From: Paenibacillus rubinfantis
Lineage (GTDB): Bacteria > Bacillota > Bacilli > Paenibacillales > Paenibacillaceae
Assembly: GCF_001486505.1 (NCBI RefSeq)
Contig: NZ_LN909066.1
Coordinates: 447,795-511,794, forward strand
Direction: 5' to 3'
DNA: 64,000 bases
Part shown: one piece after another, positions 1-50,238 of the stretch
Layout: each line of letters starts with the position of its first letter
Numbering within the stretch: the stretch's first letter is position 1
Translations under genes and position numbers: made by a program
Notes under the pieces: generated by a model
What the model was told of the DNA's origin: nothing
Databases searched by the model: none
Seen by the model: the letters and a program-made list of their open reading frames with translations, nothing else

Positions 1-856
1 GCCGCTTGCGCATCCGATGCGGCATAACCAGCAGGGCCGCCTCCACCATATCCTCTGGCCGAACCCGGGTACGCCCTTCCCAGGCAGCAAGTGCCATGGC
101 GGTTTTCATCAGGGTGATGTCCGCGCGATGACCGTCCACCCCCAGGCGAATCCCCACTTTGGCGGTCCATTCCAGAAGTTCGTCGGTCGGTTCGATTGAC
201 GCGAGTCGCTCGCGGGCGCTTATAATCCGTTCATAAAGCTGCTGCTGTTCCCGTTCGTACCCGCGGCGAAAGGCTGCCGGGTCCGCATCAAAGGCCAGGC
301 GACGCTTGACGACCTCCATCCGATCCGCCACCTCCCGTTCTCCGGTCACTTCCACGGAAAGAGCAAAACGGTCCAGCAGTTGGGGTCTGAGCTCCCCTTC
401 CTCCGGATTCATCGTACCGATGAGAATAAAACGAGCGGAGTGCGAATGCGATACCCCCTCCCGCTCCACGGTGTTCACGCCCATCGCAGCCGCATCCAGC
501 AGCGCATCCACAATTGCATCATCCAGCAAATTGATCTCGTCGACGTACAGAATTTGACCGTCCGCCGCCGCCAGCAGCCCCGGTTCAAACCGCTTCTCCC
601 CTTCTCGGATGGCGTGTTCGATATCCAGCGTGCCAACCACGCGGTCCTCGGTAGCGCTCACCGGAAGGTTCACGACCCGAAGCCCTGGCATCAGATCGGC
701 AAGGGCGCGGACCGCCGTCGATTTGGCGGTACCTTTTTCCCCGCGGATCAACATCCCGCCAAGCCGCGGCTCAACGAGGTTTAGGAGCAGTCCTTTTTTC
801 ATCGCCTCCTGCCCAACAATCGCCGCAAACGGATAGATCTCCGGTTTCCCGTTCAT
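1..856 (-). CDS. ChlI/BchI-like AAA+ ATPase, magnesium-chelatase type, 3' end off the window
   Basis: Open reading frame of 285 codons from ATG 854-856 to the left edge with no stop, so the C-terminus is missing. Seen: Walker [10 protein letters not shown] at residues 39-47, Walker B ILYVDE at 102-107, and a sensor/arginine-finger segment LRPQLLDRF, as in the I subunit of Mg- and Co-chelatases, which form AAA+ rings that drive metal insertion into tetrapyrroles. Its start overlaps the stop of the upstream ABC ATPase as ATGA, so the two are translationally coupled. It is the fourth gene of a leftward operon behind a Zur-type operator, so a role with zinc or cobalt is inferred rather than one in chlorophyll. 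A ChlD-like or CobN-like partner may follow beyond base 1. The family call is firm; the substrate is unknown. Confidence 0.85.
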
Positions 857-1683
857 CCTAATCCTCTCCTATATCTTCGATTTTCGATGTTTCCTTCCTG
901 ATCCAGCAGTCCCGTAACCAAGCAGCTTAAGCGAGCGGTTTCCGGGTCCTGCGTGATTTGTCCTTTTACCCCAAACACTTCACCCAGCGTTTGCTCGGTT
1001 AGCGTATCCGCCGGTTTTCCGCTCACATATACCTCCCCCTGGCTCAAAACCAGGATTTCGTCGGAAAAGGCAGCCGCATGATTCATATCGTGCAGCACCA
1101 TCAGGATGGTGATGCCGTGCTTTTGGTTCAGTTCGGAAACGAGCTCCATGATCTCCCATTGATGGCTGACATCCAAATACGTGGTGGGCTCGTCAAGCAG
1201 CAACAGACGCGGCTGTTGCGCCAGCGCCAGAGCGATCCACGCCCGCTGACGTTCTCCCCCCGACAAGGCGGACAGCTTGCGATCCGCCAGCGATAAGGCT
1301 CCTGTCTGGGCCAAAGCCCAGTCAATGATCTCCTCATCCTCCCGGCGAAGGCCGGCCCAGGCCGGTTTATGAGGAAAGCGTCCATAGCCGACCAAGGTGC
1401 GCACCGTCAAGTCCGGCTGCTTCTCCTGGCTTTGCTGTAGCATGGACAAATATCTGGCCAGGCCGCGTCGGGAATAGCTGGCGAGGGGCCGATCGTCCAG
1501 CAGGATCGTGCCGCGGACCGGCTTCAGCTGTCCGGCGATCGCTTTCAGTAAGGTGCTTTTTCCGCAACCGTTGGGACCGATGATGCTATAGATTTTGCCC
1601 TTCTCCGCCTTCCAGCTGATCCGCTCGATCACCGGGCGGTGGTTGTATTTGACAGCGAGGTTATCCAGCGCCAACGCGGTCAT
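853..1683 (-). CDS. FecE/FhuC-type ABC transporter ATP-binding protein
   Basis: 276-residue cytoplasmic ATPase of the siderophore/heme/cobalamin importer class. Walker [10 protein letters not shown] at residues 36-44, signature LSGGERQR at 140-147, Walker B LLLLDEP at 160-166 and the switch histidine in VLHDMNHA are all intact. It would power the FecCD-type permease encoded just upstream; the two genes overlap by ATGA, and the next gene (ChlI-like) also overlaps by ATGA. Family members move iron siderophores, heme, cobalamin or other metal chelates. The operon sits behind a Zur box, so the cargo here is more likely zinc or a zinc chelate, or a metal that compensates for zinc loss. That last step is inference. 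Confidence 0.92.
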
Positions 1684-2693
1684 TCGCCTTCCCTCCTTAA
1701 TAAATACAGAAAAAACGGCGCCCCGAAAGCGCCCAGAATGATGCCGACCGGAAGCTCAATGGGTGCAAACAGCAAGCGGGCCAGCGTATCACAGACGGTC
1801 ACCACGGCCACGCCAAGCAGGGCGGAAGCGGGCAGCAGCAAACGGTGGTCACTGCCAATGAGCAACCGGGCACAATGGGGGACAATCAGTCCCACAAAGC
1901 CCAGTAATCCCACGACGCTCACCGCGCTGGCAGCCAAAAGCGTGGCTACGGCCGTTAACATGAGGCGCGTGGCCTCCACCCTCACCCCAAGGCCACGCGC
2001 ATGGGCATCGCCTAGCGCCAACAGGTTGAGGTGTACCGAACCGATCATCGCCAACGCCAGACCTGCCAGCGAATAAGGAAGCATCATCTGCAGCTCCGGC
2101 CAGCTTTTGGCCGACAATCCGCCAACAAGGAAGACGAGCGCGCCGTTGACACGGTCGCTGTAGAAGGTGAGCAGCGCCGAGATCCCCGAGCCGAGAAACG
2201 CGGATACCGCGACCCCTGCCAGGATCAGGCGAACCGGCTGAACCCCCTGTTTCCAGGCCAACGTATAAATGATTGCCGCCGCCGCCGAAGCTCCAAGGAA
2301 GGCAACCGGCGTCAGCAGCGGCCAGGCCTCCGGATATAGGATCAGAATCGTGATCCCAAGCAGCCCTGCCCCGGAAGAAACGCCGATAATATGCGGGTCA
2401 GCCAGGGGATTCCGCATCACGCCCTGCAAGATCGCCCCCGACAAAGCGAGATTTACGCCAACCAAAGCTGCAACCAGTGTGCGGGGCAAACGGATGTTCC
2501 AAATGACTTCTCGCAAGGGGCCGTCGAATCCATGAAACAGATACTGCCAAATTTCCCCCGGCGAGATGAAGACGGCGCCGGTCCCGATGCTCCAGGCGAT
2601 CCCGAACACCGCCGCCAGCGCAATGGCCGTAAGCACGCCCCCTCCTCTTGCTGCGGTAAATAATTTGATGTTATTTTCCATTTCCATTTCCAT
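1680..2693 (-). CDS. FecCD-family ABC transporter permease
   Basis: 337-residue polytopic membrane protein with about nine to ten hydrophobic segments. It has the family hallmarks RLPRTLVAALVG near residue 48, GAILQGVMRNPLADPHIIG near 85, and GFVGLIVPH toward the C-terminus. It would form the homodimeric channel served by the downstream FecE-type ATPase. The start lies inside the 3' end of the binding-protein gene: a short GGAAAT direct repeat reads GNGNGK-stop in one frame and MEMEMEN in the other. The three successive ATGs (2693, 2687, 2681) therefore leave the exact start open and point to coupling with the binding protein. Substrate is inferred from the operon only. Confidence 0.92.
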   Translation of the reverse strand: MEMEMENNIKLFTAARGGGVLTAIALAAVFGIAWSIGTGAVFISPGEIWQYLFHGFDGPLREVIWNIRLPRTLVAALVGVNLALSGAILQGVMRNPLADPHIIGVSSGAGLLGITILILYPEAWPLLTPVAFLGASAAAAIIYTLAWKQGVQPVRLILAGVAVSAFLGSGISALLTFYSDRVNGALVFLVGGLSAKSWPELQMMLPYSLAGLALAMIGSVHLNLLALGDAHARGLGVRVEATRLMLTAVATLLAASAVSVVGLLGFVGLIVPHCARLLIGSDHRLLLPASALLGVAVVTVCDTLARLLFAPIELPVGIILGAFGAPFFLYLLRREGE

Positions 2694-3747
2694 AAATCTC
2701 GGGATAGACCAGTTTAGCTAAATATTCCACCGATTCGTTGAGCCGAAATCCCGGGTGCGACAGCAACAGGTTGGAAGGCAATATCGCCATGCGCTGTTCC
2801 TTAACCGCGCGCAGCGAAGCCCAGGCCGGTTGATTGGCCAGGTCGGATTCGATTTTCTTCTCTCCATCCTCACGAGCTCCATGAATCAGCAGGAACACAT
2901 AATCCGGGTCCAGCTCCACGATTTTCTCTAAGCTAAAAGGGGCTGTGCTGGGACTCTTCTGTGAAGCCTCCAGCGTTGCCGCCACGTTCGTCATATGCAG
3001 CATTTCCGCAACTTCCAGTCCCACGGTATGCTCTCGCTGTACGGTAATGCTGCTGGGCGTCACGTTGAGCATGATAAAGCTAGGCGATGAGCCCGCCGGT
3101 ACCTTCGCGGTCAACTCGTTAATTTGTCCCTCCAACTTGGCCAGCGCCTCCGTAGCTTTCGTCTCCGTATCGGCAAATTTGCCGAACAGCAGCGCCTTTT
3201 CCCGTAAATCTTCATACGTGCTGAGATTAAAAAGAGCAAAAGGAACGCCGCTCGTCTCCAATACGCTGGTCAGATCCCGATGGAACGAGGTGGAGCCGAG
3301 GACGAGATCCGGCTTTAAGGACAGTAATTTCTCGGTATTCACCGTGGTGATGCCTCCAACTTCTTCAAGCGACTTCGCTTCCTCCGGCACCGTTCCCCCG
3401 GTTGAAGTGGCCCGGGCGATGGCGGTACCGTCGACGGCATACAATAAATCAAGCAACTGCGGCGAAAGGACGATGATCTTCTTCGGACGTGACGGAAGCG
3501 TGACCTCACGTCCAGCATCATCCGTAAACGTAAGAAACGTCCCGGTTTCCCCCGGATCCCCGGCGGACGCTGCCTCCGTGGCTTGCACCGTTGTCGCCGG
3601 CGAGTTGGCGGCGGTTGTTTGGCTTGGCTGATCTCCTGCTGGCGATCCGCACCCTGCAGCTAATGCCAAGAGCACCCCCCCTAACAAACCACCTGCCCAT
3701 GTTTTGACTGGTCTCCTTTTGAAACCCGAAGCTTGCGATTGATTCAT
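2671..3747 (-). CDS. Metal/metallophore-binding lipoprotein, PF01497 (FepB/BtuF) type
   Basis: 358 residues. Lipoprotein signal with lipobox LALAAGC near residues 27-33, a Ser/Thr/Ala-rich tether, then a helical-backbone binding domain beginning FTDDAGREVTLPSRPKKIIV, which is typical of siderophore, heme and cobalamin receptors. It would sit on the outer face of the membrane and deliver cargo to the FecCD permease. Ribosome binding site AAAGGAGAGGAG precedes ATG 3747. It is the first gene of the leftward operon, with a TTGACA-18-TATACT promoter and a perfect Zur-type palindrome over the predicted transcription start. Its ligand is unknown: this fold differs from the ZnuA-type zinc receptor, so a chelated metal is more likely than free zinc. 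Confidence 0.9.
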   Translation of the reverse strand: MNQSQASGFKRRPVKTWAGGLLGGVLLALAAGCGSPAGDQPSQTTAANSPATTVQATEAASAGDPGETGTFLTFTDDAGREVTLPSRPKKIIVLSPQLLDLLYAVDGTAIARATSTGGTVPEEAKSLEEVGGITTVNTEKLLSLKPDLVLGSTSFHRDLTSVLETSGVPFALFNLSTYEDLREKALLFGKFADTETKATEALAKLEGQINELTAKVPAGSSPSFIMLNVTPSSITVQREHTVGLEVAEMLHMTNVAATLEASQKSPSTAPFSLEKIVELDPDYVFLLIHGAREDGEKKIESDLANQPAWASLRAVKEQRMAILPSNLLLSHPGFRLNESVEYLAKLVYPEIYGNGNGK

Positions 3748-3773
3748 ATGTAAAAGCTCCTCTCCTTTCCTTA

Positions 3774-3790
3774 ATCGTAATTATTACGAT
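3774..3790. promoter_or_regulatory. Zur box 1 (leftward metal-import operon)
   Basis: Perfect palindrome ATCGTAAT-T-ATTACGAT. It matches the B. subtilis Zur consensus (TCGTAATnATTACGA) at every arm position. It starts 7 bp downstream of the TATACT box of the leftward promoter, over the likely +1, so bound Zur would block initiation when zinc is plentiful. The sequence is observed; regulation is inferred from the known consensus. Confidence 0.85.
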
Positions 3791-3796
3791 GTAGAC

Positions 3797-3826
3797 AGTA
3801 TAATCACCCCTACTTTTGCTTGTCAA
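3797..3826 (-). promoter_or_regulatory. Sigma-A promoter of the leftward metal-import operon
   Basis: On the minus strand TTGACA (3821-3826) and TATACT (3797-3802) are separated by 18 bp, about 50 bp upstream of the binding-protein start at 3747. Zur box 1 lies directly downstream of the -10 element. Confidence 0.75.
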
Positions 3827-3861
3827 TCCAAATTCCAAGAATGGAACTGCCAATTTTTCTC

Positions 3862-3890
3862 TTGTTATTTGTAATGATTACGATTACTAT
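3862..3890 (+). promoter_or_regulatory. Sigma-A promoter of the rightward permease-CobW operon
   Basis: TTGTTA (3862-3867) and TACTAT (3885-3890) are separated by exactly 17 bp. The spacer is wholly occupied by Zur box 2. The first gene starts 47 bp downstream of the -10 element. Confidence 0.65.
3868..3884. promoter_or_regulatory. Zur box 2 (rightward operon)
   Basis: TTTGTAAT-G-ATTACGAT, identical to the Zur consensus except for two positions in the left arm. It fills the spacer between the -35 and -10 elements of the rightward promoter, a classic repression position. Its centre is 94 bp from the centre of box 1. Confidence 0.75.
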
Positions 3891-3937
3891 AGGGACAAAT
3901 AGCACTGTTTACCGGTTGTTGAAGGGGTTAATTTCTC

Positions 3938-4870
3938 ATGTCATGGCTTTCATCCGAGGTTTCGAATAACCTGCTCACGTTCAAAACGATGTTTATCAGC
4001 ATTTTTCTGGAGGCACTTCCCTTTCTCTTGCTTGGGGTTATCGTATCCTCCTTGCTGCAGTGGTTTGTTTCGGAACGTTTAATCTCCAAAATGATTCCCC
4101 GCCACCCGTTGCTCGGGATCTTGTTTGCTTGTTTCTTTGGGGTGATTTTTCCCATTTGTGAATGCGGGATGGTCCCGGTGATTCGCCGATTGATCGCCAA
4201 AGGCATGCCGGTGTACATCGCCACGGTGTTTATTCTTAGCGGGCCAATCTTGAATCCGATCGTTTTCTTCGCGACTTACACGGCCTTTCGCACTCGTCCC
4301 GAAGTGGTATACTCCCGAATGGGCTTAGCTCTGGTCGTCGCCTTGGTTATCGGCCTGCTCGTCTACCGGTTCATTCGATATCAGCCGCTCCGCTTCAGCC
4401 TGGATACGCTCTACGAAGAGGACCTTCGCGATCGCAGCCATGAATCCTGGACGGATAAGCTCACGTCCCGGCTCATGCATCTGTGTAACGAATGGTTTGA
4501 GATGACCAAATATCTGACGGTGGGCGCCCTGATTACGGCCCTGATCCACACCTTTGTGAGCACGAGCCAGCTGGCGGCGTATGGTCAGGGGCCCGTCTCC
4601 TCTCACCTTTTGATGGCGGGCTTCGCTTACCTGCTGTCGATCTGTTCGACCTCCGACGCCTTTGTTGCTTCTTCTTTTGTGAATACCTTTTCCGTGGGAT
4701 CACTCCTTACCTTTCTCGTCCTTGGCCCGATGCTCGACCTGAAAGGAACGCTGATGCTCTTCTCCGTCTTCAAGACGAAATTCGTCCTAACCCTTGGAGC
4801 GATCATCCTCGTCGTGGTGCTTGCTTTTAGCATCGGATGGGATCACATCGTGCTCCGATCATTTTCCTAG
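3938..4870 (+). CDS. ArsP_1/UPF0718-family permease (YcgR/YraQ-like)
   Basis: 310-residue integral membrane protein with about eight hydrophobic segments and family motifs ICECGMVPVIRRL and LSGPILNPIV, including the conserved Cys in CECG. These permeases occur with TIGR03943 proteins in Bacillota (B. subtilis YcgR/YcgQ); characterised ArsP relatives export methylated arsenic, but the YcgR branch has no settled substrate. It is first in a three-gene rightward operon that ends in a CobW GTPase, and its promoter carries a Zur box, so a zinc-starvation role is inferred. Start ATG 3938 follows GAAGGGG with suitable spacing. The next gene begins 12 bp downstream of the stop. Confidence 0.85.
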   Translation: MSWLSSEVSNNLLTFKTMFISIFLEALPFLLLGVIVSSLLQWFVSERLISKMIPRHPLLGILFACFFGVIFPICECGMVPVIRRLIAKGMPVYIATVFILSGPILNPIVFFATYTAFRTRPEVVYSRMGLALVVALVIGLLVYRFIRYQPLRFSLDTLYEEDLRDRSHESWTDKLTSRLMHLCNEWFEMTKYLTVGALITALIHTFVSTSQLAAYGQGPVSSHLLMAGFAYLLSICSTSDAFVASSFVNTFSVGSLLTFLVLGPMLDLKGTLMLFSVFKTKFVLTLGAIILVVVLAFSIGWDHIVLRSFS

Positions 4871-4882
4871 AGGTGGCCAATC

Positions 4883-5875
4883 ATGAGAGAACAACGATCG
4901 ATCACAGCGCTGCATCATCTTGTCAGAGCGATTCTGTTGCTTGGCCTGTCCATCCTAATCGCCTACCTCGTTGAGACGAACAACCTTCAACTCTACATCG
5001 GTGTACGCATCCGCCCTTTGGTCAAAATATCAGCCCTGATCGTTTATGCTTTGGCAGTCATCCAGGGCTTTATTGCCTACCGAATTTATCGCGGTTCAGC
5101 GGTTATGGATTGCGATTGCTGCGAACCTGCTCCAACGAAATCCTGGCCTAAGGCGGGTTTCCTTTACGGGATGATCGCTTTGCCACTGCTGTTGGGCTTT
5201 TTGCTGCCGGATACCGTCCTGGGTGGCTCTTTTGTAGACAAAAAAGGCATCGTGTTCACCTCGTCCATTCCCTACGGCAGTGCAGGATATTCCTCGCAAC
5301 AGGCCGCGGCTGCTGAGGTTGCCGATCCGCCGGAGGAGGCCGTTTCGGGGAAGGAAACGCTGAGCGACAGCTCGGAGATCTCTCCTGAAAAAGAGGCTCC
5401 CTCCGATGAATCTTTGGACGAACGGTTTCAAGCGGACGATGATTTTACACGGGATTTAGCCGAATTGGCGAAACGCATTTATGTATTGCCGGTGATCGAG
5501 GTCAAACCTGAAATCTACATGGAGATTCTCTCGGCGATCGTGTCGTTTAAGGAGCCGTTTCTCGGCAAGGAGATGGAAATCTCCGGCTTCGTGTATCGCG
5601 AACCGGATCTTGAGGAGAATCAATGGGTGATCGGGAGGATTGCCGTCCAGTGCTGCACGGCGGATGCGACGCCTTATGGCGTATTAATGGAGTTCGACGG
5701 GACTTCGCAACTAAAAGAGGATGCATGGGTCAAGGTGAAAGGCACTCTCGGCCAGACGAAGTATCACGGAAATCCCATTATTCAACTTGAGGCCGCCGAG
5801 GTCGAGGTTATCGAAAGGCCGGATAATCCATACATTTACCCCAACTTTGATTTTTTGAATGTAGATATTCCCTAG
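4883..5875 (+). CDS. TIGR03943-family membrane protein (YcgQ-like), partner of the ArsP_1 permease
   Basis: 330 residues. Transmembrane segments near residues 10-30, 40-60 and 90-108 are followed by a cytoplasmic-type cysteine cluster (DCDCCEP between TM2 and TM3) and a long soluble region. That region has an acidic, low-complexity linker (about 140-180) and then a C-terminal OB-like segment with ISGFVYREP and GRIAVQCC. Members are nearly always encoded beside a UPF0718 permease, as here, and are presumed to be its accessory subunit. The CxCC motif and the second Cys pair could bind metal. RBS AGAGGTGG lies just before ATG 4883. Function is inferred from pairing and Zur context only. Confidence 0.82.
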   Translation: MREQRSITALHHLVRAILLLGLSILIAYLVETNNLQLYIGVRIRPLVKISALIVYALAVIQGFIAYRIYRGSAVMDCDCCEPAPTKSWPKAGFLYGMIALPLLLGFLLPDTVLGGSFVDKKGIVFTSSIPYGSAGYSSQQAAAAEVADPPEEAVSGKETLSDSSEISPEKEAPSDESLDERFQADDDFTRDLAELAKRIYVLPVIEVKPEIYMEILSAIVSFKEPFLGKEMEISGFVYREPDLEENQWVIGRIAVQCCTADATPYGVLMEFDGTSQLKEDAWVKVKGTLGQTKYHGNPIIQLEAAEVEVIERPDNPYIYPNFDFLNVDIP

Positions 5876-5912
5876 AACGTGATTTCATGGTTTGAAGAAG
5901 GAGATGCTTCGA

Positions 5913-6947
5913 ATGCGTACCCCCGTGATCCTGCTTAGTGGTTTTTTAGGCAGTGGCAAAACGACGCTGCTGCTTGAGCTGATGAAGGAACTGCATGCCC
6001 GTGAGCTGAAACCGGCGGTCCTGATGAATGAGCTGGGCAAGGCCGATGTGGACGGCCGGATTTTATCCGAATCCACCCCCGACTTCCCCTTGGAGAAGCT
6101 GTTCGACGGCTGCATCTGCTGCAGCAAAAAAAGCGAAATTTCCGGCGCACTCCAAAGCCTATTGGCGCTTGCCCCCGACGTCATTGTCGTCGAATTAACC
6201 GGAGTCGCCAATCCTGAGGAGGTCGTGGATGCCATGGCCGAGCCGGAGCTCCTGAACAAATTGCGTTTACATAAGATCGTGACCGTGCTGGATGCCGAGC
6301 ATGCGCTGGAGTACAACAGCATCTTTTCCTCCGATCGCCAACTCGTGCGTACACTCCGTCGCCAGCTGGAAGTGGCGGATGTGATCGTCATCAATAAAAC
6401 CGATCTTGTATCGCCAGTCCAATTGACGAAAGTTAACCGCATGATCCAAAAGCATAACGAGCGTGCCGTGCTCCATCCTTCGGTTCACGCCAAATTTGAT
6501 CTGGAAGGGGTCATTCGGGGATTGGATCCGCTGCATCAGCAAGCGCAGAGATCCAAAATGTTGAAGGTGGTATCCACAGGGTATCCCCTCGCTCCAGCCG
6601 GCGGTGCCGGCTTGCACGAGGAGCGTGAGCAGGCTTCTTTTTCCCGTATTCAAAGTATTGTCGTGCCCCTTTCCGCACAGGTCCCTTTATCGCTGTATCA
6701 GCTGGAGAAGCTGCTTAGAAGCCAAGGGAGCCGGATACTGCGCGCCAAAGGGTATGTATCTTTGGATGACTCCCCCGAGGCAACCTTGATTCAATACGCC
6801 GGACGACGGATTCAGCGGGAACGCTCAGGTTACACGGGCCCTCATTATCTGGTGATCATCGGATACGAAATGGACGAGACCGCGTTGCTGGAGGAATGGC
6901 AGACTTCTATCAACCCCAATCCTCAAAATGCTCCTCAAGAAATCTGA
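5913..6947 (+). CDS. CobW/COG0523 GTPase, YciC/ZagA-like zinc metallochaperone
   Basis: 344 residues from ATG 5913, chosen because AAGAAGGAG lies 9 bp upstream; an in-frame TTG at 5892 would add seven residues but places that site inside the coding region. Walker A GFLGSGKTT at 10-18, the hallmark metal-binding CICC at 67-70, NKTD guanine-specificity motif at 161-164, and a CobW C-terminal domain from about 245. COG0523 proteins bind zinc and GTP and hand metal to client enzymes; B. subtilis YciC (ZagA) is Zur-controlled. The Zur box upstream of this operon supports the same role. The last 38 bp overlap convergently with the end of the next gene. Confidence 0.9.
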   Translation: MRTPVILLSGFLGSGKTTLLLELMKELHARELKPAVLMNELGKADVDGRILSESTPDFPLEKLFDGCICCSKKSEISGALQSLLALAPDVIVVELTGVANPEEVVDAMAEPELLNKLRLHKIVTVLDAEHALEYNSIFSSDRQLVRTLRRQLEVADVIVINKTDLVSPVQLTKVNRMIQKHNERAVLHPSVHAKFDLEGVIRGLDPLHQQAQRSKMLKVVSTGYPLAPAGGAGLHEEREQASFSRIQSIVVPLSAQVPLSLYQLEKLLRSQGSRILRAKGYVSLDDSPEATLIQYAGRRIQRERSGYTGPHYLVIIGYEMDETALLEEWQTSINPNPQNAPQEI

Positions 6948-7704
6948 CTTCCTTCTCGTAGTGAGCCAGGTGCCCTTCCTCAACCAGCTTGATAAAAGCC
7001 GGGTCTCCGGCAGCGGCACGTTCGGATAAAGTGCTGCACATGGCTTGGATTCGGGAGATCACCCATTCCTTGAAGTCGCTTGGTATATCGATCCCGTAGG
7101 ATTGGAAGAAGAGTTCGATCCTTCTTTTTCGCAAAGTCGCATGAAGTTCCCGGTCATAAGGAACCACCTCGCGGTCCTTATCCCCTGGGGCAAATCCAGC
7201 GAGGGGAACCGAGGTATACAGGGTGTAGGCGATATCCCACAACCGCGGACCGGGTCCGGCCATGTCGAAATCGATCATTCCCACAGGCTGTTGATCGTTA
7301 AACACGATATTGTACAAGGCCGCGTCATTATGACAGACGACTTCATTTCGCGTTTCATCTGGGTATCGGTTGACCGATTCATGGGGGGTTACAAAACCTG
7401 TTGTGGCATCATGATAACTTCTCAAAAGCTTCGCTAACTGGGTTAGCACATGGTCCGACCACATATAGGGTTCAATTTCGGGGTAGTTGTTCCCCGGCAC
7501 ATCACCTTCCAGATAAGTCAGGATTTCTCTCCCCTGCTCATCTCGCCCCAAAAATCTCGGAGAGTGAGCAAACCCTTGGGCTTCAAGGTGTTTCAGCAAA
7601 TCATACACATAAGGGTTGGGATCTGCCTTTCTTCGCACGGTCCCCCCTACTTTTACGACCTGATTGATATTACCGCCGTTTAACATTTCTTCGTGTTCGG
7701 ACAT
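6910..7704 (-). CDS. Aminoglycoside phosphotransferase (APH)-family small-molecule kinase
   Basis: 264 residues from ATG 7704, with GGGAGG 9 bp upstream; the in-frame GTG at 7713 touches that site and is unlikely. Kinase motifs: catalytic loop HNDAALYNIVF (HxDxxxxN) and the metal-binding IDFDMAGPGPRLWDIAY. The family phosphorylates aminoglycosides, choline, homoserine or other small alcohols, and sequence alone does not say which; no resistance role can be claimed. It is a monocistronic gene convergent with the CobW gene, with 38 bp of shared coding sequence at the 3' ends. The 240 bp upstream hold the repeat cluster at 7803-7937. Confidence 0.82.
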   Translation of the reverse strand: MSEHEEMLNGGNINQVVKVGGTVRRKADPNPYVYDLLKHLEAQGFAHSPRFLGRDEQGREILTYLEGDVPGNNYPEIEPYMWSDHVLTQLAKLLRSYHDATTGFVTPHESVNRYPDETRNEVVCHNDAALYNIVFNDQQPVGMIDFDMAGPGPRLWDIAYTLYTSVPLAGFAPGDKDREVVPYDRELHATLRKRRIELFFQSYGIDIPSDFKEWVISRIQAMCSTLSERAAAGDPAFIKLVEEGHLAHYEKEVRFLEEHFEDWG

Positions 7705-7802
7705 GATGTACACCTCCCGTCGATGGCCCTACTTCGGTTTCATGGTTTCTTTATGTACTATCGGAATTGTATTCGAAATTTCATATATAATTTGGGCGCT
7801 GG

Positions 7803-7944: not shown

Positions 7945-8487
7945 CTACTCCCAAAGACGCTTTACATCCATTACCTTATCCCCGGTAACCCCTAGCTCAT
8001 ACACATCTGGATTCGTAAGCCGGCTCCACGCCTCGTACCCAAATGAAGAGTCATAATGTTTCAAAATCAAGGACATGAGATTCCCGTGAGTCACCACAAC
8101 GAGATTCATTTCCGGTCGTTGAACCAAGTCTTCCATAACTGAGATTCCCCGAGTCATTGCCTCCCATGAGGATTCCCCACCCGGCAGCTTCATATCGAGA
8201 TCATCAAACGACTTCCTTAGTTTATCCATCCAATCTGGCATCCCCTCGGACGACAGAATTCTCTCACGAAGACGATTATCTCTATGTATTGGCAAACCTA
8301 ACCGTTGTGCTAGTGGTTGAATCGTTGAGATCGCTCTTTGATAGGGGCTGCAAACTATCCAATCTATGAATTTGTCCTCTAAAAAATCCGCCAACTGCCC
8401 CGCCTGAGTTACTCCTTCTTGCGTTAACTCCGCCGAGGCTTCTTGACCACTCGCCTTACAATGTCTAATTAAGTAAATCCGCTTCAA
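7945..8487 (-). CDS. Histidine phosphatase superfamily protein (phosphoglycerate-mutase-like)
   Basis: 180 residues. The N-terminal IRHCKASG is the RHG-type phosphohistidine motif with Cys in place of Gly; the second catalytic His is in VVVTHGNLMS near residue 133, and the CSPYQRAISTIQPL segment is also typical. The fold carries out phosphatase or mutase chemistry on sugars, nucleotides or cofactors; the exact substrate cannot be read from sequence. Start ATG 8487 follows AGGGAGGGG. It appears to be a stand-alone gene with the lipoprotein gene 56 bp upstream on the same strand. Confidence 0.85.
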   Translation of the reverse strand: MKRIYLIRHCKASGQEASAELTQEGVTQAGQLADFLEDKFIDWIVCSPYQRAISTIQPLAQRLGLPIHRDNRLRERILSSEGMPDWMDKLRKSFDDLDMKLPGGESSWEAMTRGISVMEDLVQRPEMNLVVVTHGNLMSLILKHYDSSFGYEAWSRLTNPDVYELGVTGDKVMDVKRLWE

Positions 8488-8543
8488 GGATGTCCCCTCC
8501 CTAAGTTAGGATTGGTAAGGAAAATACCTTCTCCCGGTTCATG

Positions 8544-9299
8544 TTACCCTCTCCCTGCCTTCCATTGCTTATATAACTGCTCCATGGAAGTGTTCAGGAT
8601 CGTCTCCAAGGCGTAAGGATCTCTAATGAGTTCATTTAACGAATCCAGTCCATATTCATCAACAATAAATTGGACAATTAATCCACTATAGAAATAGGCT
8701 GAACTTCCGTAATCATCAAAAAAGGTGGCACTTTGAAGCTGTTCAAATGTTGGAATCTCGCGGAATTGATGTGTTTTATCCAAATCTGCCTCAAGCTGCA
8801 AAGCAGCGTAATAAGCCGTGCCTTCATCCAGCCATTTCATCTGTCCAACCACCGGATTTATTTGTTGGATGATCGCATGAACAAATTCGTGAACTAATTG
8901 ATCCATATAGTCTGAATGTAAAGAAGGGACAAATCGGATTTGTGACGGGGTAAACACCTTAATCGTTTGATCCTTGGCATCATACGTCCCTTCCGTTTGA
9001 CGGCCTATGGATTCATAAAATTGCGCCTTGTCGGTATATACATGAATCTTCGTTTTCTCAGAGGGACTGAAGTGGAACATGCGGGTTAACCGTTCATAAT
9101 GGGACTCATAATGTAGAGATAACTCTTCAACAACTTGTTGAACATCATCCTCTTGACTTGGAGAATAGAATTTTCCATGTTGGGTTTCTTGAATGAGTAA
9201 GAGTTCATCTTCATTTGCTCCATTGCCTTGGTTGGTGCCAGAACAAGAACCTAATAGCAGTAACGTGAATATACTCCATGCTGCAAAAGCATGCTTCAA
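8544..9299 (-). CDS. Lipoprotein with HExxH zinc-peptidase-like domain
   Basis: 251 residues. Lipobox LLLGSC near residue 19 places it outside the membrane. HEFVHA (HExxH) and, about 25 residues later, WLDEGTAYY supply the usual gluzincin ligands His, His and Glu, as in the peptidase MA-like family. It is therefore probably a cell-surface metallopeptidase or a relative that kept the metal site. No partner gene is evident. Distance and orientation allow co-transcription with the acetyltransferase gene upstream (108 bp gap). Confidence 0.72.
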   Translation of the reverse strand: MKHAFAAWSIFTLLLLGSCSGTNQGNGANEDELLLIQETQHGKFYSPSQEDDVQQVVEELSLHYESHYERLTRMFHFSPSEKTKIHVYTDKAQFYESIGRQTEGTYDAKDQTIKVFTPSQIRFVPSLHSDYMDQLVHEFVHAIIQQINPVVGQMKWLDEGTAYYAALQLEADLDKTHQFREIPTFEQLQSATFFDDYGSSAYFYSGLIVQFIVDEYGLDSLNELIRDPYALETILNTSMEQLYKQWKAGRG

Positions 9300-9407
9300 T
9301 TGCTTTCCCCACTCTCTTGTGTATGTAATAACTCCACTTGCCCAAGAACCCAGCCCTGGATCGCTTTTATCTTCGGCCGGGTCGTCTGTTGGGATTGGCT
9401 CTACTCC

Positions 9408-9914
9408 CTAGATTTTAGGTATGCGGTACACCTTATCGTATAGAAGCGCCTTGCACGCCAAGAACTCGTTCTCTGCGAGCGACTTCGGATAGCTCATGAT
9501 TTTCAGCGGTAGATCCTCTTCTCCAACCCGTAACGGTGGCTGAACATAGTCATAATCATTAAGACGGAATCCAAGGCGCTCATAAAACCGGATTCGGCGA
9601 CAAGAGAGCGTGTCTTCCGGCAGTTCCACCTCGAGTATAGTCAATTTCTTCGACTCACTTAAATACTTGTTCATCAGCCGTTTCCCAATTCCCCCACCTC
9701 GCACAGAGGGATCTACGGCCAGATGCTCAATAAAGCGAAACAGCGGAAATTCCCATGCCGCCAAAAAGGCGATCATCTGCCCCTGCTCATCGGACTCGGT
9801 CATCAGCCGATATTCGGGGTGCTGCAGCAGCTCCTTTTGTCCGGATGGGGTTCGATATTCGTTCTCCGGAAAAGAAGCTGACATCATCTCATAAACGCGC
9901 TCAAAATCATTCAT
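9408..9914 (-). CDS. GNAT-family N-acetyltransferase
   Basis: 168 residues from ATG 9914; an in-frame TTG at 9953 would add 13 residues but has no ribosome binding site, whereas GAAGGAAG lies upstream of 9914 (spacing a little long). Acetyl-CoA-binding signature VRGGGIGKRLM near residues 80-90, preceded by a beta-strand EHLAVDPS and followed by FYERLGFR, all typical of GNAT. The N-terminus FERVYEMMSASFPENEYR is common in Bacillota members annotated only as acetyltransferases. Acceptor substrate unknown. Confidence 0.82.
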   Translation of the reverse strand: MNDFERVYEMMSASFPENEYRTPSGQKELLQHPEYRLMTESDEQGQMIAFLAAWEFPLFRFIEHLAVDPSVRGGGIGKRLMNKYLSESKKLTILEVELPEDTLSCRRIRFYERLGFRLNDYDYVQPPLRVGEEDLPLKIMSYPKSLAENEFLACKALLYDKVYRIPKI

Positions 9915-10094
9915 TCCGCTAACTGCACTTCCTTCATCTTGTTCAATTATCAAAAAAGGCCTTCGGATATTGGAGTTCCCCTTGATAAGTCCGGATCCGC
10001 TCGACTAACTTTGACTCCTCCTCCCGCTCCCCGAAAGCATGGAAGTGAAGTGTAAAGATCGCTTGGACATCACTTGGTTCTTCCGCTCTGATCC

Positions 10095-49833: not shown

Positions 49834-50238
49834 TAACCCACACCTCCTTAGGTTCAGCCCTTCCCTCAAGTTGTCGACTAACCGAGGTACTATGGCGTCT
49901 GCTGACTTCTCATGATAAATCTTGTTTCAACCATGATTTGAAATTCATCTCCTCACGTCCATGAGACCTCCCACGGTAAGACGCGTAACTTTCATCCCGT
50001 ATACCCGCCGCATTTACATCCGCGTGTCCGTGCAGTTTATTGGATTTCGTCTTGTTTAGCAGACTCATCCCACTTTGGATGCCTGATGCGATTCGTGTTC
50101 CTCAGGCCGGGACTTTGCCTCCAGCTTCCTTCAGATTCCACCTCACGATGGACACCCTTGCTCTTGGCTAATGGTTGGCAACTGCCAGCCCCCATAGCGG
50201 ACTTTCACCGCCTAGCTACGCGCCATGCGTGGCGCACC

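Follow-up and report, generated by a model that had tools for sequence, protein, structure and literature searches.

A predicted Zur-controlled divergent locus in Paenibacillus rubinfantis pairs an importer-plus-chelatase operon with a permease and COG0523 operon

We analysed a 64-kb stretch of the genome of P. rubinfantis (hereafter the window). Two divergent operons, separated by the intergenic region 3748-3937, lie at its left end, and their features are listed in Table 1. Genes of an ABC importer and of a chelatase make up the left operon, which runs out of the window. The right operon encodes a permease pair and a COG0523 GTPase. Both permease proteins scored over the cut-offs of their models (PF03773, 239 bits against 32.3; TIGR03943, 161 bits against 88.8). 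The GTPase reached 95.8 bits with the ZigA model NF038288 (cut-off 600) and is not of the ZigA subfamily. An APH-type phosphotransferase gene (6910-7713) converges on the GTPase gene, their ends overlapping by 38 bases, and an Rfam search placed group II intron domains at 49857-50152 on the minus strand.

Table 1. Genes, predicted promoters and predicted Zur boxes of the divergent locus, in window coordinates (negative positions lie left of the window)
Feature	Position	Strand	Details
ChlD-like and BchH/CobN-like genes	about -5487 to -72	-	left of window; latter 1,257 aa
ChlI/BchI-like AAA+ chelatase subunit	2-856	-	312 aa in full; extends out of window
FecE/FhuC-type ABC ATPase	853-1683	-	profile match
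FecCD-type ABC permease	1680-2693	-	PF01032
Substrate-binding protein, lipoprotein-like, Peripla_BP_2	2671-3747	-	relatives: Lmo2184, heme-binding IsdE, siderophore binders
Predicted Zur box 1	3775-3789	.	TCGTAATTATTACGA; perfect 7-1-7 palindrome, 7 nt downstream of leftward -10
Predicted leftward promoter	3797-3826	-	TTGACA (3826-3821), 18-nt spacer, TATACT (3802-3797); 11/12 consensus bases
Predicted rightward promoter	3862-3890	+	TTGTTA (3862-3867), 17 nt, TACTAT (3885-3890); 8/12 consensus bases
Predicted Zur box 2	3869-3883	.	TTGTAATGATTACGA; one mismatch, in spacer of rightward promoter
ArsP_1 permease	3938-4870	+	PF03773
DUF1980/TIGR03943 permease partner	4883-5875	+	profile match
COG0523 (CobW-like) GTPase, candidate metal chaperone	5892-6947	+	cobW domains

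The part of the left operon beyond the window was read from the adjoining stretch, L005, in which window position equals L005 position minus 10000. ChlD is split there across two overlapping minus-strand frames (8299-9417 and 9209-9928), so that the gene as a whole occupies L005:8299-9928, or about -1701 to -72 of the window. A single ChlD frame of 643-734 aa was present in 23 of the 24 readable loci of relatives, the exception being L065. The chelatase of P. rubinfantis may therefore be damaged, unless the assembly is wrong. Since the contigs of G007, a genome of the same genus with a 90% identical chelatase, break at ChlD, an assembly fault is possible.

Candidate Zur sites were scored against TCGTAATNATTACGA, which we take to be the Zur 7-1-7 pattern. 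Within one mismatch of the pattern, the window contained no sites other than boxes 1 and 2, and 100 dinucleotide shuffles of it contained none. The 7-1-7 and 9-1-9 forms of the Zur site are both named in a review (PMC6103462). A first-pass annotation had described box 1 as a perfect Zur palindrome directly behind the leftward -10 element; this was confirmed without a mismatch, with the start one base higher than annotated, and the box lies over the likely transcription start. It had also described box 2 as exactly filling the 17-bp spacer of the rightward promoter. Box 2 does lie within that spacer, but it covers 15 of the 17 bases.

The leftward promoter is not rare by itself, as 0.9 such hits are expected per shuffled region, and the rightward one scored under the threshold of our promoter scan. 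Matches to the permease were found in 328 of the 392 genomes of the order, and the 30 best-scoring loci were fetched. All nine loci scoring next after the window's own retain TTGTTA at the same 17-nt distance from an AT-rich -10, which is TAAAAT in the relatives; the single mismatch of box 2 in the window compares with two to three in these nine. Thus, the predicted rightward promoter is conserved in nine relatives, and box 2 is conserved there more loosely. A Zur site with at most two mismatches within 400 bp was present at 20 of the 30 loci, and eight of these 20 sites share a single weak motif, TAGTAATAATTATGA.

The first-pass annotation had proposed a genome scan with a Zur position matrix, which was carried out here as a pattern search over all 5.37 Mb (18 contigs). 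The genome contains two perfect sites, one of which is box 1, and four with one mismatch, compared with 0.016 and 0.68 expected from independent bases. Zinc-type genes lie downstream of five of these six sites. Two of the five precede the window operons, and the other three a znuC-like gene, a znuA-like gene and a COG0523 gene divergent from a second permease set. The znu and kinase names were read from translations, and the COG0523 gene was scanned by profile. The sixth site sits within a sugar-kinase-like gene and is probably there by chance. With three mismatches allowed, the scan gave 240 sites per strand, compared with 114 for the reversed pattern, and was dropped as uninformative.

The COG0523 gene just mentioned belongs to a second divergent Zur-boxed locus (L080:6087-11036; G000 C18:1.0041-1.0090 Mb), in which it stands opposite a permease/DUF1980/CobW set. 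It scored 537 bits with the ZigA model (cut-off 600), and znuC-, znuB- and znuA-like genes adjoin the locus. Four Fur-family proteins are encoded in the genome. Among them, a 153-aa protein on contig C17 is a Zur candidate; it carries HHHHH and CxxC motifs, and its gene and a znuA-type operon with a Zur box (L060) are about 3 kb apart. The PDB chains nearest to it are PerR, Fur and the zinc regulator FurB of M. tuberculosis. The candidate scored 25 bits with the NCBI Zur model (cut-off 167), and its naming therefore rests on motifs and place.

We then compared the locus with its counterparts in other genomes. Binding-protein matches were present in 82 of 117 relatives searched, and chelatase matches in 28 of the order's 392 genomes. 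The cassette set consists of the 26 genomes readable up to the binding protein; G211 (contig ends before it) and G308 (broken pieces) are not among these, and neither is another class of chelatase, seen in G108, in G155 and as a second copy in G103. Of the 26 cassettes, 20 carried a Zur box with at most two mismatches no further than 500 bp from the binding-protein gene; none of 11 controls did (eight importer sets without chelatase and three chelatases of the other class). Sixteen more distant binding-protein loci (L044-L059), which overlap with the controls, likewise had no box at two mismatches or fewer. Mononucleotide shuffles gave a box in 0.4% of regions. The Fisher p for 20/26 versus 0/11 is 1.4e-5, uncorrected for relatedness and too small because the sample contains six near copies (G005, G012, G023, G057, G080, G313).

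The six cassettes that missed the cut differ in kind. At L065 and L118, the best sites within 500 bp have three mismatches; L065 is rearranged and has better Zur sites 3 kb upstream. L122 has a perfect box some 720 bp upstream; a zur-like gene and a remnant resembling rpsN separate it from the cassette (L122:8783-9327). L124, L126 and L127 also have three mismatches; in these, znuA and znuC lie 0.5-1.6 kb upstream of the cassette and point the same way, with a one-mismatch box ahead of znuC. The L062 region contains znuA, rpsN-like, zur-like and two COG0523 genes as well. At L065 (G003) and L174, ChlD and chelatase pieces are rearranged and no good Zur box lies within 500 bp; these loci are possibly decaying or misassembled.

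That both boxes are chance matches is extremely improbable. The palindrome is short and AT-rich, and three-mismatch sites are numerous in the genome, which speaks for chance; the rarity of good sites in the genome, the empty window shuffles and the conservation of boxes at the cassettes of relatives speak against it, and we rejected this reading. Genome rarity, genomic company and conservation in relatives together lend good support to a Zur operator on each of the two divergent promoters, and comparison strongly supports predicted Zur control of both operons. The first-pass annotation had taken the leftmost 7 kb of the window as one zinc-starvation regulon. Predicted control of both operons agrees with this, but the extent does not, as the left block continues for about 5.5 kb past the edge of the window.

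The same cassette was sought beyond the order in a scan of GTDB genomes, from which the best 80 of 120 confirmed loci were kept. Among these, importer-plus-chelatase clusters were found in Bacillaceae, Clostridia and two Chloroflexota. The label of each cluster came from the best site no more than 400 bp from its first gene; for L125 and L169, the Zur label was assigned manually from the 500-bp order-wide scan (L116 there is locus L169). In dinucleotide-shuffled regions, the expected frequency of a site with at most two mismatches is 0.09% for Zur and 0.8% for Fur. In Bacillaceae, a box was present at six of the seven cassettes of the Zur binding-protein group, two of which are from strains of one species. 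Fur-type sites were found at six cassette loci of other Firmicutes among the best 80 of 120. Four Bacillaceae loci (L189, L194, L195, L224) have one-mismatch Fur-type sites upstream of the cassette and are candidates for a Fur-controlled heme or iron-chelate system. The Fur-type site of L197 has two mismatches and that of its sister L193 four, and the Fur label of L197 may be due to chance. Evansella vedderi has the Zur version and E. caseinilytica the Fur version.

These labels follow the binding-protein tree. Its 59 rows comprise 25 Zur, 6 Fur, 25 without a site and 3 linked to znu genes, and all 25 Zur rows share a group of 32 with the 3 znu-linked rows and 4 of those without a site, although the support for this group in the quick tree is only 82. 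Zur and Fur are separated by a single change. Separating Zur from all other labels takes seven changes, compared with a shuffled mean of 19.0. In the chelatase tree, also a quick tree and one with a long-branch warning, two changes lie between Zur and Fur. In Bacillaceae, the Fur versions come with another binding-protein clade than the Zur versions.

The large subunit of the chelatase contains the full-length CobN-Mg_chel domain (PF02514, 1044 bits, profile 2-1089 of 1090). It scored below the curated cut-offs of both the BchH model (TIGR02025, 809 bits, cut-off 829) and the CobN model (TIGR02257, 637 bits, cut-off 822), and by these cut-offs it is therefore neither BchH nor CobN. Its best PDB profile matches were ChlH (693 bits), CobN (594) and HmuS (9d26, 470). 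The corrin marker CbiC/CobH was absent from this genome, as no PF02570 match was found, and B12 synthesis by the left operon was rejected on this ground together with the low CobN score. Among the 28 chelatase-bearing genomes, CbiC was above cut-off in three, and a fourth has a broken match below cut-off. Another CobN-like chelatase class (29-34% identical) adjoins ABC importer genes at L128, L129 and L130. A B12 role, considered for this class at first, was not kept, the genomes concerned (G103, G108, G155) being without CbiC too.

As for the cargo, the binding protein was compared with known structures by profile and by fold. By profile, Lmo2184 ranked first (117 bits) and IsdE fourth (111 bits) of 91 PDB entries, with siderophore binders between them; the fold comparison again put Lmo2184 at the top and heme-bound IsdE in third place, in the company of siderophore binders (model pLDDT 86.5). 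The protein also resembles the siderophore binders FeuA, YfiY and HtsA. Residues were compared in 25 of the 32 Zur-group proteins (seven omitted, mostly near copies), five Bacillaceae Fur proteins and 19 of 22 others. His156, Asn228 and His289 were constant in all 25 of the Zur group. Position 156 is Asn in all five Fur proteins and Gln (15) or His (4) in the others; position 289 is His (2) or Pro (3) in the Fur set and never His in the 19 others, which are of Clostridial type. His289 aligns with a His of IsdE that we take to be the heme ligand His229. The other heme ligand of IsdE is presumably Met78, and a Thr stands at the aligned position here. The alignment of His289 fits a porphyrin ligand, but His289 is no mark of porphyrin binding for the whole cassette family, since it is absent from the Clostridial types and present in two of the five Fur proteins. 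Import of a chelate of some kind follows from the predicted protein families, and from regulation and linkage we infer that zinc is the metal carried.

We propose the following explanation, which we consider likely as a whole. Zinc-loaded Zur on box 1, over the transcription start, and on box 2, between the -35 and -10 elements, would shut both promoters; repression at both is what we infer from the positions of the boxes. When zinc falls, Zur would leave and both divergent operons would be expressed. The left operon would supply a heme/siderophore-class importer together with a three-part class I chelatase (ChlI, ChlD and BchH/CobN-like). Its importer would bring a metal-organic chelate into the cell, and the chelatase would act on the metal in the cytosol. 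The permease pair and GTPase of the right operon would move or deliver scarce zinc. The first-pass annotation had assigned a zinc function to four vague genes; the zinc context stands, whereas the reaction does not follow, as Zur control alone gives none.

The reading we favour, with somewhat less than even credence, is that zinc enters in the chelate and is released by the chelatase. Analogy to HmuS suggests de-metallation of what is perhaps a zinc tetrapyrrole; what speaks against it is that ChlH and CobN, the closest relatives of known function, insert metal, and that HmuS uses NADH and apparently no ATPase partners. More tentatively, a Zur-run importer of heme type with a His-bearing binding protein may take up zinc tetrapyrroles from which a BchHID-type de-chelatase frees zinc; as a Fur-linked iron version also exists, the metal would then have switched in evolution along with the binding protein. 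The reaction could also run the other way: an imported tetrapyrrole, free or carrying iron, would receive a different metal (cobalt or zinc, for example) to be used or stored while zinc is scarce. We consider this somewhat unlikely. The nearest characterised proteins insert metal, BchH and CobN lead by model score and ChlH and CobN among PDB matches, and a Zur-regulated cobN-like operon was suggested by the authors as a possible explanation for the raised cobalt of a P. aeruginosa znuA mutant (PMC4542158). Set against insertion are the missing corrin marker and the removal of metal by the homologous HmuS (PMC12583661), and the importer within the operon, with znuA-znuC or zur-like neighbours in four relatives, suits uptake better.

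It is unlikely that the cargo is a non-tetrapyrrole zinc metallophore (catechol or carboxylate), with the chelatase-like complex serving as an ATP-driven release machine. PA2911-2914 has been proposed as a carrier of chelated zinc (PMC4542158), in keeping with such a cargo. YfiY, HtsA and FeuA also match the binding protein by fold nearly as well as IsdE does. To our knowledge, however, all characterised class I chelatases act on tetrapyrroles. ChlH, CobN and HmuS are grouped together in one account (PMC12583661), which also weighs against the metallophore. We consider it quite improbable that the left operon serves iron or cobalt, has no zinc role and came under Zur by mere chance. The Fur-type sites at cassettes of other Firmicutes and the family names, which say iron and cobalt, point that way, but the Zur rows form one binding-protein group over two families, one change from Fur, and the cassette is linked in relatives to znuA-znuC, zur-like and COG0523 genes.

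If the zinc reading is true, the left operon would be an uncharacterised route of zinc acquisition in Firmicutes. One group of these chelatases gains a likely metal and a testable role from the Zur box that precedes a full set of importer and chelatase genes, for the most part in genomes lacking the corrin marker. The cassette exists in a Zur and a Fur version and so provides a natural experiment on change of metal specificity. Among the papers listed for Paenibacillus and Zur, none gave binding or transcript data on this organism. Among the matches listed from titles and abstract starts of open-licence PubMed Central papers, none described a Gram-positive operon with an importer and three chelatase subunits under Zur, with a Fur sister; subscription papers or regulon databases may hold one. 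The main text of the Zur review does not contain the words "chelatase" or "cobN" (PMC6103462). The new part of the locus is the left operon.

Operons like the right one are already known as targets of Zur, and a zinc role for them is no novelty. Control of COG0523 genes by Zur is classical (PMC2770081), and in B. anthracis, gel shifts showed that Zur binds before the ArsP_1 permease operon BAS1632 and the COG0523 gene yciC (PMC6336718). Our locus shares with this system an ArsP_1 operon, a COG0523 gene and two Zur boxes. The partner opposite the ArsP_1 operon of B. anthracis appears to be yciC (BAS1633; both probes, one primer pair; PMC6336718), whereas in the window it is the chelatase operon, and the word "chelatase" does not occur in the main text of that paper. 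The B. anthracis-type arrangement is also found in our genome, elsewhere (C18:1.005 Mb).

The left operon resembles several known systems in part. With HmuS of the Bacteroides hmu operon, it has in common a class I chelatase homologue in an uptake operon. HmuS takes iron from heme under anaerobic conditions, yielding protoporphyrin and Fe(II) with NADH and apparently without ATPase partners (PMC12583661); here, ChlI and ChlD genes are present and a Zur box precedes the operon. Met-79, His-254 and a methionine-rich insertion are specific features of HmuS, and the likeness here is one of profile similarity only. B. fragilis without the CobN-like BtuS1 and BtuS2 grew poorly on heme as sole iron source (PMC6460266). 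With the magnesium chelatase BchH-BchI-BchD, the left operon shares all three subunit types, its H subunit being nearest to BchH by model score; unlike that enzyme, it has an importer and a Zur box in the operon and an H subunit under the BchH cut-off.

In P. aeruginosa, zinc starvation induces a heme/B12-type ABC importer as well as a cobN-like gene (PMC4542158), and cobN-like and heme-type importer operons are Zur-controlled there (PMC4542158, PMC13083405). The gene types of PA1921-PA1925 and PA2911-PA2914, a cobN-like gene and a heme/B12-type importer, recur here. In this Gram-negative species they form two separate clusters with TonB receptors (PMC4542158), whereas in P. rubinfantis they stand in one operon with ChlI and ChlD. 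As the role of the P. aeruginosa cobN-like gene was left open by the authors (PMC4542158), an answer from the present operon may reach beyond Firmicutes.
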